DNA from: Actinomycetota bacterium
GTDB taxonomy: Bacteria > Actinomycetota > CADDZG01 > JAHWKV01
Reading direction: 5' to 3'
Length of the DNA stretch: 64,000 nt
Assembly (NCBI GenBank): GCA_030447305.1
Contig: JAUJPC010000001.1
Span: forward strand, 389,998-453,997
Shown here: positions 16,769 to 23,929 of the stretch, in pieces
How the letters are laid out: each line of letters opens with the position of its first letter
Numbering within the stretch: the first letter of the stretch is position 1
Notes under the pieces: generated by a model
The model's input: only the letters and a program-made list of their open reading frames with translations
The model's database searches: none
What the model was told of the DNA's origin: nothing
Position numbers and translations under genes: made by a program

Positions 16769-17901
16769 TGTCCTGTCTCTGAGTTGTGGCGACGCATCCT
16801 TGCTAGCGGGCCCACATCTTCACCTTACCGATAATGTCCTCGGGGATCCGTCCCTGGGTCAGTCTGCCGTGGTGTGGGCGGTCTGTGTTGTAAAGGTGCA
16901 GGTACCGGTCAAGGTCGTGGCGCAGGCCGGTGTACTTGGGAATCAGGTAGCGGCGAAGGTTGGCTTCCAGCACTCCTCGAGGATGGTTTGCTGAACCCGC
17001 TCGACACACCCGTTGGACTGGGGCCTTCCGGCGCGAATGAAGATGTGGCGGGCCTTGAGCCGGGCGATTTCCTTGTCGAACTCGGCCGAGCGGAACTCTG
17101 AACCGTTGTCGGTGCACACCGCCTCCAGCCTCCACCCCCGGTTGGACAGATCCTCGGCCACCCGGCTAGCCAAAGCGGAGGTGAACCGGCCCTGGGCGTT
17201 TTTCGGACTGAGATGGATCTCGGCCCAGCAGAAGCTGGAGGCGACGTCGATCGCGGTGTACTGCCATGCCGTGCCCTTGGCACCCGAGAGCCGACCGATG
17301 CAAAAGCAGTCCATCTGGACCAGCTCACCCGGGTGGTCGACCTCGATGTGGCGCTCAGGCGGGGGCTGGCGGCTCTCGATCGGCTCGTAGGGGGCGGCGT
17401 AGCCGGCCACCATCCCCAGCCGCTTCGCCTTGGTGTTTAGCCCATGGCGCCTTAAGACCTTGTGGACCCCGTTGGGCGAGATCTTGATCGATCCCCATTT
17501 GCGCCGGGCCAGCTCGTCGCTGATGCGTTGCGGACCCACGGTGGGAAACGCCAGGGCGAACGCGCGATCACCCGCTGCTCAATCATCGGTGAGGTGGCGT
17601 TGGGCATCCGGGGCCGCCGGCGCTCCCCGGGGGCCAAGATCTCGATGCCGAAACGCTCGACCTGGCCCTTCCAGCGGTAGTAGGTCGAGGGATGGATCCC
17701 CATTGCCCGGCAGGCGGCTCTTACATTGCCCATCTCGTGAGCTAGTCCAAAGACTCGTACTCTGAACCGGAACAGGGCATCATCTTGAGTCAAGGCGACG
17801 TCTCCTTTCTGCTCGACGTGGTGGTCAAACAGAAGGATGCGTCGCCTCCTAAGTTGAGTCGTGGATTTGAGACAGTGTCGCTAGGTCTCGGAGATAGGAC
17901 A
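16769..17901. mobile_element. IS481-like insertion sequence, inactivated
   Basis: The ends carry inverted repeats: TGTCCTGTCTCTGAG at 16769-16783 and its near-complement at 17887-17901 (13 of 15 match). An inner pair GGCGACGCATCCTT lies at about 16788 and 17833. A GCCTAG hexamer occurs at both borders (16761-16766 and 17902-17907), offset by two bases on the left, and may be the target duplication. The element sits exactly between the ends of znuB and the penicillin-binding protein gene. Its transposase has two frame breaks. Confidence 0.75.
16803..17793 (-). pseudogene. IS481-family transposase, two frameshifts
   Basis: Joining three frames on the minus strand gives a protein of about 330 residues. 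An N-terminal helix-turn-helix contains VRAACRAMGIHPSTYYRW. The integrase core has the DDE acids in VDHPGELVQMDC, CTDNGSEF and NGCVERVQ. The C-terminal segment contains LHLYNTDRPHHG. The frame changes near 17570 and near 16948; each is explained by one missing base (the second as CCC read as CC). All catalytic residues are intact, so the breaks may be recent or due to assembly error. Confidence 0.85.
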
Positions 17902-20418: not shown

Positions 20419-21750
20419 CTATGCCGCCTTCTTGAGGGTTCTGCGGCGGTCCTCAAGCAGCAGGCCGATTCCCAGAAGAATCGACCCGGCTCCGGAAAGA
20501 CCCAGGGGCATGGTGTCCATTCCGGTCCGGACAAGTGCGTTGGTGGGGCCGCCCCTTGCCCTGCTCCCGCTGACGGTTCTTTGGATGAAACTCTTTGAGA
20601 TGCTTCCTCCGGCGCCGGGGCCGCCCTGATACACCGCGGTGATCTTGTGGTTGCCGGGTGTCAAGGAGGAGGTGGTAAAGGTTGCCCTTCCCTGACTGTC
20701 CAGAGGTGCACTGCCCAGAACGGTTGAGTCGCTGATGAAGGTCACGGTCCCTGCGGTGACTGGTGCATTAGAACCGGTTTGGGTTACGACGGTGGTGAAG
20801 GTGACGGGAGAGCCCGCTTCGGACGGGTTCTGGGACGACGTTGGAGTGCTGGTCGTAGTCGCTACGGCTCCCGGCTCATCGGAGAACATGATGTCTTCAG
20901 GGGATACGACGGTGCCGGCCGGGATCACGGTATCGGGCCCGACAACCGTTGGGCTGGTGGGTGCCGGACTGTCGGTTGGAGGGGTCACGACGGCTGTAGG
21001 CGATTCCGTGGGGGTTGGAGTGGGCTCAGTAGTGTCATCCGAAACAGGCGGGTTACAGGAGGGCCGGTTCACCGTATTGCTATCCAATGTGACCGCACCG
21101 GTGCTCGCCAGCAGCCTTCCCTGGACGGTAGCCCCCGTGTTGGCCGTTATCGATGCCGACGCAAGGATGTTTCCCACAAAGTCGGTGGTGGTCCCCAAGG
21201 TAGCGGAGCTGCCGATCTGCCAGTAAACGTGGCAGGAAACTCCGTTGATGAACTCCACGCTGCTGTTCGATGCGGTGGTGAGAGTACTGTCGACCTGGAA
21301 GATGAAGACGGCGTCGGGGTTCCCCAGGGTGTCGAGGGTCAGGGTTCCGGTCAGCTGGGCTGACGTGGCAAAGCAGTAGGTGCCGGGCAACAGGGTCTTT
21401 CCACCCAGATCCTCGTCGGTCAGATTCTGGTCACAGGGCTGAGCCCTGAGGCTGTTGTAGGCGTTGGCCGAGTCCAGCTGAGCCTGATCCGCAACTGCTC
21501 CGCCCGCTAGAATCCTGCCCGGCGGGGTGACGATTCCGGGCGGGAAGCCGGTAATCGCCGATCCCGGGCTCACCCCGACGTCTCCGCCGATCACCGTGGG
21601 CCCGGTGTTCGTCACCGTGGATCCGGCAAGGACCCCGAAGCTTTCAAGAGTTCCAAGTGTGGGAGCGGTTGCCGCATTCGCTGGGCCGGCCACCGTAAGG
21701 ATCAAGGATGCGATCAGAAGCAGGGCTGCCTGTGCCCGGAGCTTCTTCAT
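20419..21750 (-). CDS. DUF3494 ice-binding-like surface protein with sorting signal
   Basis: After a signal peptide ending near AGPANAA, residues about 30-230 match the DUF3494 ice-binding fold: LGTLESFGVLAGSTVTNTGP, IGGDVGVSPG, a GTYCF segment, DAVFIFQVDSTL and a repetitive beta-solenoid end (SITANTGATVQGRLLA, TGAVTLDSN). A Pro/Thr-rich linker (about 235-300) and an Ig-like Big_3-type domain (VTFISDSTVLGSAPLD) follow. The end has ALVRTG, a hydrophobic segment and a basic RRR tail, typical of actinobacterial sortase substrates. Family members bind ice or act as surface adhesins. Cell-wall attachment is inferred. The leader before the gene is long and rich in hairpins. Confidence 0.85.
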   Translation of the reverse strand: MKKLRAQAALLLIASLILTVAGPANAATAPTLGTLESFGVLAGSTVTNTGPTVIGGDVGVSPGSAITGFPPGIVTPPGRILAGGAVADQAQLDSANAYNSLRAQPCDQNLTDEDLGGKTLLPGTYCFATSAQLTGTLTLDTLGNPDAVFIFQVDSTLTTASNSSVEFINGVSCHVYWQIGSSATLGTTTDFVGNILASASITANTGATVQGRLLASTGAVTLDSNTVNRPSCNPPVSDDTTEPTPTPTESPTAVVTPPTDSPAPTSPTVVGPDTVIPAGTVVSPEDIMFSDEPGAVATTTSTPTSSQNPSEAGSPVTFTTVVTQTGSNAPVTAGTVTFISDSTVLGSAPLDSQGRATFTTSSLTPGNHKITAVYQGGPGAGGSISKSFIQRTVSGSRARGGPTNALVRTGMDTMPLGLSGAGSILLGIGLLLEDRRRTLKKAA

Positions 21751-21890
21751 TTGTTTTCCTGTCCCCGCGACTGCGGTAAAGGTGCCTCAGCCTGGAAGCG
21801 AGCCATAGTCTGGTCGTCTACTCGCTTGCGAGAGGAGGCAAGTTGTGGGTGCGCATTGCACCTTGTCCACCCAGAGTGAGTGTTCCTACT
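21751..21890 (-). promoter_or_regulatory. promoter and structured 5' leader of the DUF3494 gene
   Basis: On the minus strand a TATAGT -10-like element lies near 21885-21895, followed by about 130 bases before the ATG. The leader holds several hairpins: GGTGC/GCACC around 21855-21870, CTTGC/GCAAG around 21828-21845, and GCGAG/CTCGC around 21803-21832. I cannot match it to a known riboswitch. The divergent repair gene starts at 21954, and its promoter must overlap this region. Confidence 0.35.
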
Positions 21891-21953
21891 ATACCTATCG
21901 GCTAAAAGCAGCGCAGCTATAGCGTTTTCTCAGGTTTTCTCGGGGGAGCCGTC

Positions 21954-23156
21954 ATGAATGTTCTCAAAACCGATCTCGCAGGCTTAACCTTCTTCGAGAC
22001 TGCGATCGGTATGTGTGGGATCGCCTGGACCGGGCGGGGCGTGGCCGGTGTCCAGCTCCCCGAAGAGTCCGAGGCCTCGACCCGGGCGAGGATGCATCGG
22101 CGCTTTCCCGGCATGGCGGAGGCCTCTCCAACGGCGCAGGCGCAGGCTGGGCTCGACGCCATCGTGGGGCTGATGGCCGGCGACGAGATCCATCTCACTG
22201 CCGTACCGCTTGACTTCGACGGCGTGCCGGCCTTTCACCGGCAGGTGTACGAGGCCCTGCGCGCCAGCCCTCGCGGAACCACCCTTACCTACGGGGAGCT
22301 GGCAGCTCTGGCTGGTTCGCCCGGTGCCGCGAGGGCGGTTGGCACGGCGCTCCGGAAGAATCCGCTGGCCATCCTGGTGCCGTGCCACCGCGTGGTGGCC
22401 GCAAACGGCAAGCTCGGAGGCTTCTCGGCACCGGGAGGTTTGTCGACCAAGACCCGCATGCTGGGGATCGAGGGAGTCTGGTTTGGTGTCGCAGCCGCTA
22501 CGCCCCGCTCGCCCGAGGGTTTTAACTTCGACCCGGGAACGGCGCTCCTCCACCTTCTCGGCGCCGACCCCGAGCTGGGCCGTGTGATCGAATCGATTGG
22601 ACCTTTTGCCATGCGGCTGGGCACCACACCAAGCATCTTTGTGGCGCTGGCGCGGGCGATTACCTACCAGCAGCTCAGCGGAAAGGCGGCCGAGACTATC
22701 TACGGCCGCATGTGCAGCCTGTTCGCCAGTCCCGATGCCGGCCCCACCGCTGAGGAGCTTCTTCGGCTGTCCGACGAGCAGCTTCGCGGTGCAGGGGTGT
22801 CCCGACCTAAGACCCGGGCACTGCGTGACCTGGCGCAGCGCCAGCTCTCAGGCGAGATTCCGACGCTCGCGGAGGCAGACCGGCTCAGCGACGAGGAGCT
22901 GGTGGAACGGCTGACCGTCGTGCGAGGGATAGGCCGCTGGACCGTGGAGATGCTTCTCATGTTCCGGCTGGGCAGGCCGGATGTTCTTCCGGTGAGCGAC
23001 CTGGGCATCCGCAAAGGCTTCGCCCGTGCCTTCGGAGGAGAGCTTCCACTGCCGTTGGAGGTCATGGAGCGCGGGGAAAGATGGCGGCCCTATCGAACGG
23101 TGGCCTCTTGGTACCTCTGGCGGGCGGCGGAGATGAAGCCGGGGGTGGAGATCTAG
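21954..23156 (+). CDS. Ogt-AlkA fusion: O6-alkylguanine transferase plus 3-methyladenine glycosylase
   Basis: The 400-residue protein joins two alkylation-repair activities. Residues 1 to about 175 are an O6-methylguanine-DNA methyltransferase with TYGELAALAGSPGAARAVG and the acceptor motif VPCHRVV (Cys near 144). After a short linker, residues about 185-400 form an AlkA-type helix-hairpin-helix glycosylase: ITYQQLSGKAAETI, the hairpin VRGIGRWTVEMLLMF and the catalytic Asp349 in PVSDLGIRKG. No Ada regulatory domain is present. The start follows GGGGGAGCC. One protein would therefore handle both direct reversal and base excision of alkylated DNA. Confidence 0.9.
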   Translation: MNVLKTDLAGLTFFETAIGMCGIAWTGRGVAGVQLPEESEASTRARMHRRFPGMAEASPTAQAQAGLDAIVGLMAGDEIHLTAVPLDFDGVPAFHRQVYEALRASPRGTTLTYGELAALAGSPGAARAVGTALRKNPLAILVPCHRVVAANGKLGGFSAPGGLSTKTRMLGIEGVWFGVAAATPRSPEGFNFDPGTALLHLLGADPELGRVIESIGPFAMRLGTTPSIFVALARAITYQQLSGKAAETIYGRMCSLFASPDAGPTAEELLRLSDEQLRGAGVSRPKTRALRDLAQRQLSGEIPTLAEADRLSDEELVERLTVVRGIGRWTVEMLLMFRLGRPDVLPVSDLGIRKGFARAFGGELPLPLEVMERGERWRPYRTVASWYLWRAAEMKPGVEI

Positions 23157-23597
23157 TTAGCGACAGGCCTTACAGAGGCCGAACAGGCCCAGCGGGCGCT
23201 GGTGCAGCTCGAACCCGAAATCGTCCAGCAGATCTTTCTCAACCCTGGCCATCAGCGAGACGGGCAGCTCCTGAACCGACCCACATCTCTCACAGCATAG
23301 ATGGTGGTGCTGATGATCCCGCAGGTGATACACCGCGCTGCCATCCGCGAAGTACACGCGATCGACGATGTCTAGCTCCCGCAGTGTCTCGAGGGTGCGG
23401 TAGACGGTGGAGACGTCCATCGAAGGAAAGTCTTTTTGCACTCGGGTGGCGATGTCGTCGGCGCTGATGTGCCCGTGGCAGTCCACGATGACCTTGATCA
23501 CCGCCTGCCGGCTCATTGTCCGCCGTCGCCCCCCGGCAACGAGCTGACGCATGATTTCGTCGACTTGCGACTGATGAGACTGCTTGACGTTTGCCAT
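23157..23597 (-). CDS. Fur-family metalloregulator (Zur or Fur)
   Basis: The 146-residue protein has the Fur winged helix (DVSTVYRTLETLRELDIVDRV) and metal-site residues HQHHHLCCERCG. A structural zinc site is formed by CERC and the C-terminal GLCKACR. The start is set at MANVKQ (23597); the longer open frame upstream belongs to an amidase remnant. A TTGACT element followed by CATAGGGT could be its promoter. The Zur-like palindrome before znuA makes a zinc role attractive, but iron or peroxide sensing cannot be excluded from sequence. Confidence 0.88.
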   Translation of the reverse strand: MANVKQSHQSQVDEIMRQLVAGGRRRTMSRQAVIKVIVDCHGHISADDIATRVQKDFPSMDVSTVYRTLETLRELDIVDRVYFADGSAVYHLRDHQHHHLCCERCGSVQELPVSLMARVEKDLLDDFGFELHQRPLGLFGLCKACR

Positions 23598-23639
23598 CAC
23601 CAAGACCCTATGACTAGTCAACCCGGTTCGAGTATCTAA

Positions 23640-23904
23640 CCATGCAGCCCCTGGTGCACATGCTGCTGAGCAGCCGGCCGCCGGTCGAGCACTTGCGACG
23701 GCCGAGCCGCTGGATGAACCTCCAGGTACTCTGCGGTCGTCCAGCCGATTGGGTGGAGTGCCAAACCATTTTCTTATTCCCGTGATTCCGAAGGCGAGCG
23801 TGGAGGTTGGTCTTGCCGACGATGTGCAGGCCGCCCAAGACTTCCTCAGCGCGAATGGAGGCCAGGCAGAAGGCATTATTCGTGCGGGCGTGCCTGTTTG
23901 CCAC
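23640..23904 (-). pseudogene. amidase fragment (amidase signature family)
   Basis: Two frames on the minus strand together spell a piece of an amidase-signature enzyme. GGLHIVGKTNLHA occurs in one frame. The other has FGITGIRKWFGTPPN and RRVPGGSSSGSAVASA, which includes the GGSS(G/S)GS motif with the catalytic serine. The switch lies near 23800. Only about 80 residues survive, with no upstream or downstream part, so this is a true remnant rather than just a sequencing slip. It is fused in frame to the Fur-family gene, which would mislead automatic start calls. Confidence 0.65.
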
Positions 23905-23929
23905 ATAGCGTGTCTACAATGGGTTACTC

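Follow-up and report, generated by a model that had tools for sequence, protein, structure and literature searches.

An actinobacterial reading frame that joins an Ogt-type alkyltransferase to a short AlkA/Mag1-type glycosylase

RESULTS

One open reading frame encodes two alkylation-repair domains

The gene described here encodes a 400-aa protein in which about 20 residues connect an Ogt-type alkyltransferase to a short AlkA/Mag1-type glycosylase (Table 1). Its reading frame occupies positions 21954 to 23156 (+ strand) of the window, by which we mean the whole 64-kb stretch of DNA that was analyzed; it opens with ATG and runs for 400 codons to a stop codon with zero internal stops. Pfam recognized DNA_binding_1 (PF01035) at residues 93 to 175 (E value of 6e-30; 103.3 bits, cut-off 27) and HhH-GPD (PF00730) at residues 234 to 378 (E value of 3e-14; 53.7 bits, cut-off 26.2), and the scan of the reading frame returned nothing beyond these two families. 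Among the domains absent from the frame by Pfam were the Ada metal-binding domain (PF02805), an AraC-type helix-turn-helix, and endonuclease V; lack of the first two led us to reject an Ada-like regulator, and lack of the third sets the protein apart from the AGT-EndoV class. In NCBIfam, the first half scored 92.3 bits against TIGR00589 (cut-off 46.4), whereas the E. coli-type AlkA model (PRK10308) gave 40.6 bits, far below its cut-off of 229, and aligned at profile positions 133 to 280 only. An earlier note, made from the sequence alone, had described a single polypeptide with Ogt and AlkA domains and without the Ada regulatory part; the Pfam, NCBIfam, and PDB matches bear out both points. 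Its AlkA label holds as far as an AlkA-type glycosylase is concerned but needs refinement, as the enzyme is of the short Mag1/Deinococcus type and lacks the N-terminal domain that E. coli AlkA has.

Table 1 Features of the fusion gene and of the ATL-AlkA fusions (positions in the window unless a locus is named)
Feature	Position	Strand	Basis
Ogt-AlkA fusion gene	21954..23156	+	Open frame and two Pfam domains; fused frame in 4/4 genomes of the genus
GGGGGAG, purine-rich, ribosome-binding-site-like	21942..21948	+	5 nt before ATG, by sequence reading
O6-alkylguanine alkyltransferase half, residues 14-175	21993..22478	+	PF01035, TIGR00589; alignment with 1sfe
Arg127, base-flipping arginine finger (by motif)	22332..22334	+	Position in RAVG motif
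Cys144, predicted methyl acceptor in PCHR	22383..22385	+	Alignments including 1sfe
Linker, residues 176-196 (21 residues)	22479..22541	+	Least conserved; pLDDT <50 at 171-191
Short AlkA/Mag1-type HhH-GPD glycosylase half, residues 197-396	22542..23141	+	PF00730; Mag1 matches
Helix-hairpin-helix core GIGRWT, residues 325-330	22926..22943	+	Alignment/motif
Asp349 in SDLG, predicted catalytic aspartate	22998..23000	+	Alignment with Mag1 and the B. halodurans and D. radiodurans AlkA proteins
ATL-AlkA fusion, G095	L031 1081-2682	+	Translation, Pfam
ATL-AlkA fusion, G410	L045 1498-2814	-	77% identity to G095 fusion, PWHR

Among PDB entries, the first half comes closest to E. coli Ada, at its C-terminal domain (1sfe; E value of 4e-22; aligned residues 15 to 171). 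Unlike alkyltransferase-like (ATL) proteins, this half retains the N-terminal alkyltransferase subdomain: it aligns with 1sfe from residue 15 onward, and strands and helices are predicted at residues 10 to 74. The RAVG motif, whose arginine finger has a role described for E. coli Ada (excerpt of PMC4437013), was found in three of the four rows of the genus alignment, which are all the rows reaching that position. In the second half, the search of the PDB placed Schizosaccharomyces pombe Mag1 nearest (3s6i; E value of 2.5e-41), and the short AlkA proteins of B. halodurans and D. radiodurans were also matched. The residues on which catalysis is expected to depend are intact, as the earlier note had claimed from the PCHR motif and the aspartate: Cys144 is invariant in 4/4 genus rows, together with His145 and Arg146, and Asp349 is invariant in 14/14 rows of alignment A2.

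An AlphaFold2 model of the fusion, built from 8 rows (mean pLDDT of 73), consists of two folded halves with a loose linker of low confidence between them; pLDDT also falls below 50 at residues 139 to 165, a segment that includes the active-site Cys. When the model was used as a Foldseek query, Mag1 was matched (3s6i; E value of 2.5e-15; TM score of 0.85 by target), and the Ada C-terminal domain was matched as well, lower in the ranking.

The fused frame is conserved in the genus

In a survey of 61 genomes, the fused frame was present in all four genomes of the window's genus, its own included, and in none of the remaining survey genomes. Two relatives (G001 and G002; the window's genome is G000) carry the whole frame at 72% identity over residues 10 to 395. 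In the third, G003, the gene is split over two contig ends, which encode residues 7 to 184 and 139 to 396 and share an exact 141-nt overlap. The fused gene is also carried by a GenBank MAG contig (JAJCYF010000069.1, Actinomycetes bacterium OFTM18), where it is probably the same gene as that of G001. The four proteins can be aligned without any frameshift, the linker included, and the catalytic residues are kept. Among the three whole genes, dN was 0.19 to 0.22 and dS 1.0 to 1.6 for the Ogt half, compared to 0.08 to 0.19 and 0.9 to 1.4, respectively, for the AlkA half; the dN/dS values are rough because dS is near saturation. With dN well below dS, both halves are under purifying selection, and the linker evolves faster than either of them.

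A single indel in the assembly or reads could in principle have erased the stop between neighboring ogt and alkA genes, since a Roseateles plasmid carries ada followed by a short alkA in the order seen in the fusion, with a 4-nt overlap, but this source of error, which the earlier note had named as the one that would undo its reading, was examined and is excluded for practical purposes by a stop-free fused frame in 4/4 genus genomes at about 72% identity and by a linker that aligns across them without a frameshift.

Distribution of related arrangements

Outside the genus, the two domains were found as separate matches and no fusion was seen in the survey, be it in the other two genera of the family (G004 and G005), the other two genera of the order (G006 and G007), or the remaining 16 genomes of the class (G008 to G023). 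In a 396-genome sample of the phylum, no further Cys-bearing chain ran across both halves among the matches listed, a search in which weaker fusions may be missed. Beyond the phylum, the search covered plasmids, phages, viral contigs, and one low-sensitivity, pattern-based scan of genome contigs. Six plasmid places that covered much of the query (H1 to H5 and H9) were rejected as fusions, as the halves lay in separate frames in all six. The order at plasmid loci L038 and L039 is ada and then alkA; L040 to L043 have other arrangements. The Roseateles layout is a possible precursor arrangement. Scans of viral contigs returned AlkA relatives and no fusion, with one locus (L052) encoding both domains in separate frames, and the 24 matches in phage records were all partial, each spanning less than 80% of the query.

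A second, independent fusion joins an ATL domain to AlkA

One genome of the phylum sample, G095, gave among the matches listed a match running over query residues 96 to 394 in one frame. Pfam found both domains in this protein, and PWHR reads where the acceptor Cys should be; therefore, we assign the first domain to the ATL class. A search of 42 genomes of that family found the ATL-AlkA chain in two of the four listed genomes of genus g76 (G095 and G410). A candidate third case (G405, locus L046) was rejected, because its translation has no PWHR or PCHR stretch ahead of AlkA. In both ATL-AlkA genomes the preceding gene resembles what we take to be a LigD polymerase-type protein. When the ATL-AlkA protein was the query, 55 genomes of the 396-genome sample matched at an E value of 1e-35 or better in the ranked list, and among the matches listed only the Ogt-AlkA of the window's genus, besides G095, ran stop-free from within the ATL domain into AlkA. 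Both kinds of fusion place an alkyltransferase-fold domain N-terminal to a short AlkA. They differ in that ATL-AlkA has Trp for the acceptor Cys, has no recognized N-terminal alkyltransferase subdomain, and has its AlkA half in another clade.

The phylogenies agree with separate origins. The AlkA tree (43 rows) unites the AlkA halves from the four genomes of the window's genus in one clade (support of 100/99) and places those of G095 and G410 elsewhere, inside a clade of actinobacterial enzymes that stand alone. Grouping both fusion kinds together was rejected by the AU test (p of 0.021, for a group chosen after the tree was seen). ATL-AlkA is thus a second, independent fusion, in another actinobacterial family. 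The Ogt tree (30 rows) likewise unites the Ogt halves of the four genomes in a clade (99/98), away from the Ada domain of the window's own genome; by path, the closest row from another genus is a Hydrogenophaga Ogt. The branching order within the genus is equal in both trees, with weak support there in the AlkA tree. Given this agreement and the two genus clades, the simplest explanation is that the fusion arose once, in the ancestor of the genus.

Other alkylation-repair genes and the surroundings of the fusion

PF01035 matches two genes in the whole genome. One is the fusion; the other, about 112 kb from it, encodes a complete Ada that includes the metal-binding and AraC domains, which leaves no separate Ogt among the matches. 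Because a complete Ada is present elsewhere, the fusion supplements the adaptive response and does not replace it. An Aag-type glycosylase is present. Tag and AlkB were not found by Pfam in this genome, which is 98% complete; these families match in 5 and 3 of 14 control genomes, respectively. According to an excerpt of PMC4437013, D. radiodurans AlkA, which is related to the glycosylase half, can repair 1-methyladenine and 3-methylcytosine, and by analogy it is our guess that the fusion might fill part of the missing AlkB role. PF00730 has three matches in the genome: a strong one on another contig, the fusion, and one below the cut-off about 27 kb upstream. The last is a divergent HhH-GPD reading frame of 245 aa (G000:C4:383821-384267; L019, L037 3591-4325), with about 31% identity to the AlkA half of the fusion over part of its length.

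Upstream of the fusion, at 21840 to 21900, the stretch GCACCTTGTCCAC is common to the window, G001, and G002; the DNA just upstream of the fusion in G003 looks different. This stretch may belong to either of two promoters, since it lies between the fusion and a divergent gene (20419 to 21750, - strand) for an ice-binding-like protein with a bacterial Ig-like domain, which is transcribed away from the fusion. In G001 and G002, reading frames that by eye resemble the ice-binding-like gene sit at the corresponding location. Inspection by eye of the DNA upstream of the fusion in the four genomes recognized no conserved Ada box. On the other side, a Fur-family reading frame (23157 to 23906, - strand) has an N-terminal extension that matches 40 residues of an amidase, below the cut-off. 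Long reading frames that look amidase-like by eye lie near or adjoin fur in G001 and G002, and the window may hold an amidase remnant at the Fur-family frame. Farther away, at 16943 to 17793 (- strand), two overlapping reading frames in two frames read by eye like an IS3/IS481-type transposase and its helper. An Rfam scan of the window found two tRNAs only.

DISCUSSION

The protein is very probably a single bifunctional alkylation-repair enzyme that serves as a standing defense with both halves active, judging by what its sequence encodes. The N-terminal half would flip out O6-methylguanine, and probably O4-methylthymine too, and would take up the alkyl group on Cys144 in an irreversible reaction that each molecule can perform once. 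The C-terminal half would flip out N3-methyladenine and related N-alkyl purines, a substrate range that we infer from homologues at best about 40% identical. It would use Asp349 in the hydrolysis of the glycosidic bond for many rounds and pass the abasic site to base excision repair. Tethering would keep the two halves in equal amounts and bring both to one patch of damaged DNA, a presumed benefit. We read the defense as a basal one because the chain has no sensor or activator domains and a separate Ada is present; the fusion is probably expressed constitutively.

Suicide methylation of the acceptor Cys destabilizes other alkyltransferases. The two halves could likewise be coupled, such that methylation of Cys144 would switch, release, or destroy the glycosylase; the protein would then count damage, with base excision under the control of direct repair. 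We regard such coupling as unlikely. Unlikely as well is the view that one half alone does the work, for instance, with the alkyltransferase half serving the glycosylase chiefly as a DNA-binding module that finds lesions, or with the roles exchanged. The ATL-AlkA chain of genus g76 speaks for it, since there a lesion-binding module that does not transfer methyl groups is evidently a tolerated partner of AlkA, but in the window's genus Cys144, His145, Arg146, and Asp349 are all invariant, and dN/dS is low in both halves. It is very improbable that the chain is cleaved after translation and its halves act separately as two products of one gene: in its favor, residues 176 to 196 are the least conserved and have low model confidence, but this linker is short and of equal length in the aligned genus proteins, and nothing positive points to cleavage. 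A bifunctional protein with both halves active thus remains the preferred reading.

Each half is a well-known enzyme, usually made as a separate protein; therefore, what is surprising is the joining and not the chemistry. In the open-licence literature we found no report of Ogt or ATL joined to AlkA; subscription papers fall mostly outside that scope, and sequence databases may list such chains. Several known proteins are comparable. First, Ada-AlkA fusions, e.g., of Mycobacterium, also combine alkylation-repair functions in one chain with the AlkA-type glycosylase at the C terminus (excerpts of PMC1839093 and PMC5751216), but there the partner is the Ada regulatory domain, whereas here it is an O6-alkylguanine methyltransferase. 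Second, AGT-EndoV of Ferroplasma acidarmanus and archaeal ATL-EndoV likewise link an alkyltransferase or ATL domain to a base-repair enzyme (excerpt of PMC10779285); these are archaeal and have endonuclease V as the partner, in contrast to the HhH glycosylase seen here. AGT-histone-like fusions are described beside Ada-AlkA, AGT-EndoV, and ATL-EndoV (excerpts of PMC10779285, PMC1839093, and PMC5751216). Third, of the solved alkyltransferases, E. coli Ada comes closest in sequence, through its C-terminal domain (1sfe), but the fusion is without the sensor/activator half and has an added glycosylase. Finally, Mag1 and the AlkA proteins of D. radiodurans and B. halodurans resemble the C-terminal half in fold and in the catalytic Asp, but they stand alone, without an alkyltransferase half.

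The closest functional analogy is found in Mycobacterium smegmatis, where an Ogt bait retained Ada-AlkA and the purified pair co-eluted on gel filtration as a stable complex (excerpt of PMC7432924). There too, an O6-alkylguanine transferase and an AlkA share one assembly, but it consists of two non-covalently bound chains and its AlkA chain carries the Ada A domain (same excerpt). Because that AlkA chain is of another kind, the complex serves as an analogy only, and the fusion is consistent with being a covalent form of the same Ogt/AlkA partnership. Since the chain combines a single-use alkyltransferase with a reusable glycosylase, the fate of the glycosylase after methylation of the Cys becomes a clear question. 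The gene fusion lends support to the reported mycobacterial Ogt/Ada-AlkA complex, and ATL-AlkA suggests that O6-alkylguanine recognition has been tied to AlkA more than once. If the coupling of the two halves were true, then, with the independent ATL-AlkA, actinobacteria would have built such a coupling twice.
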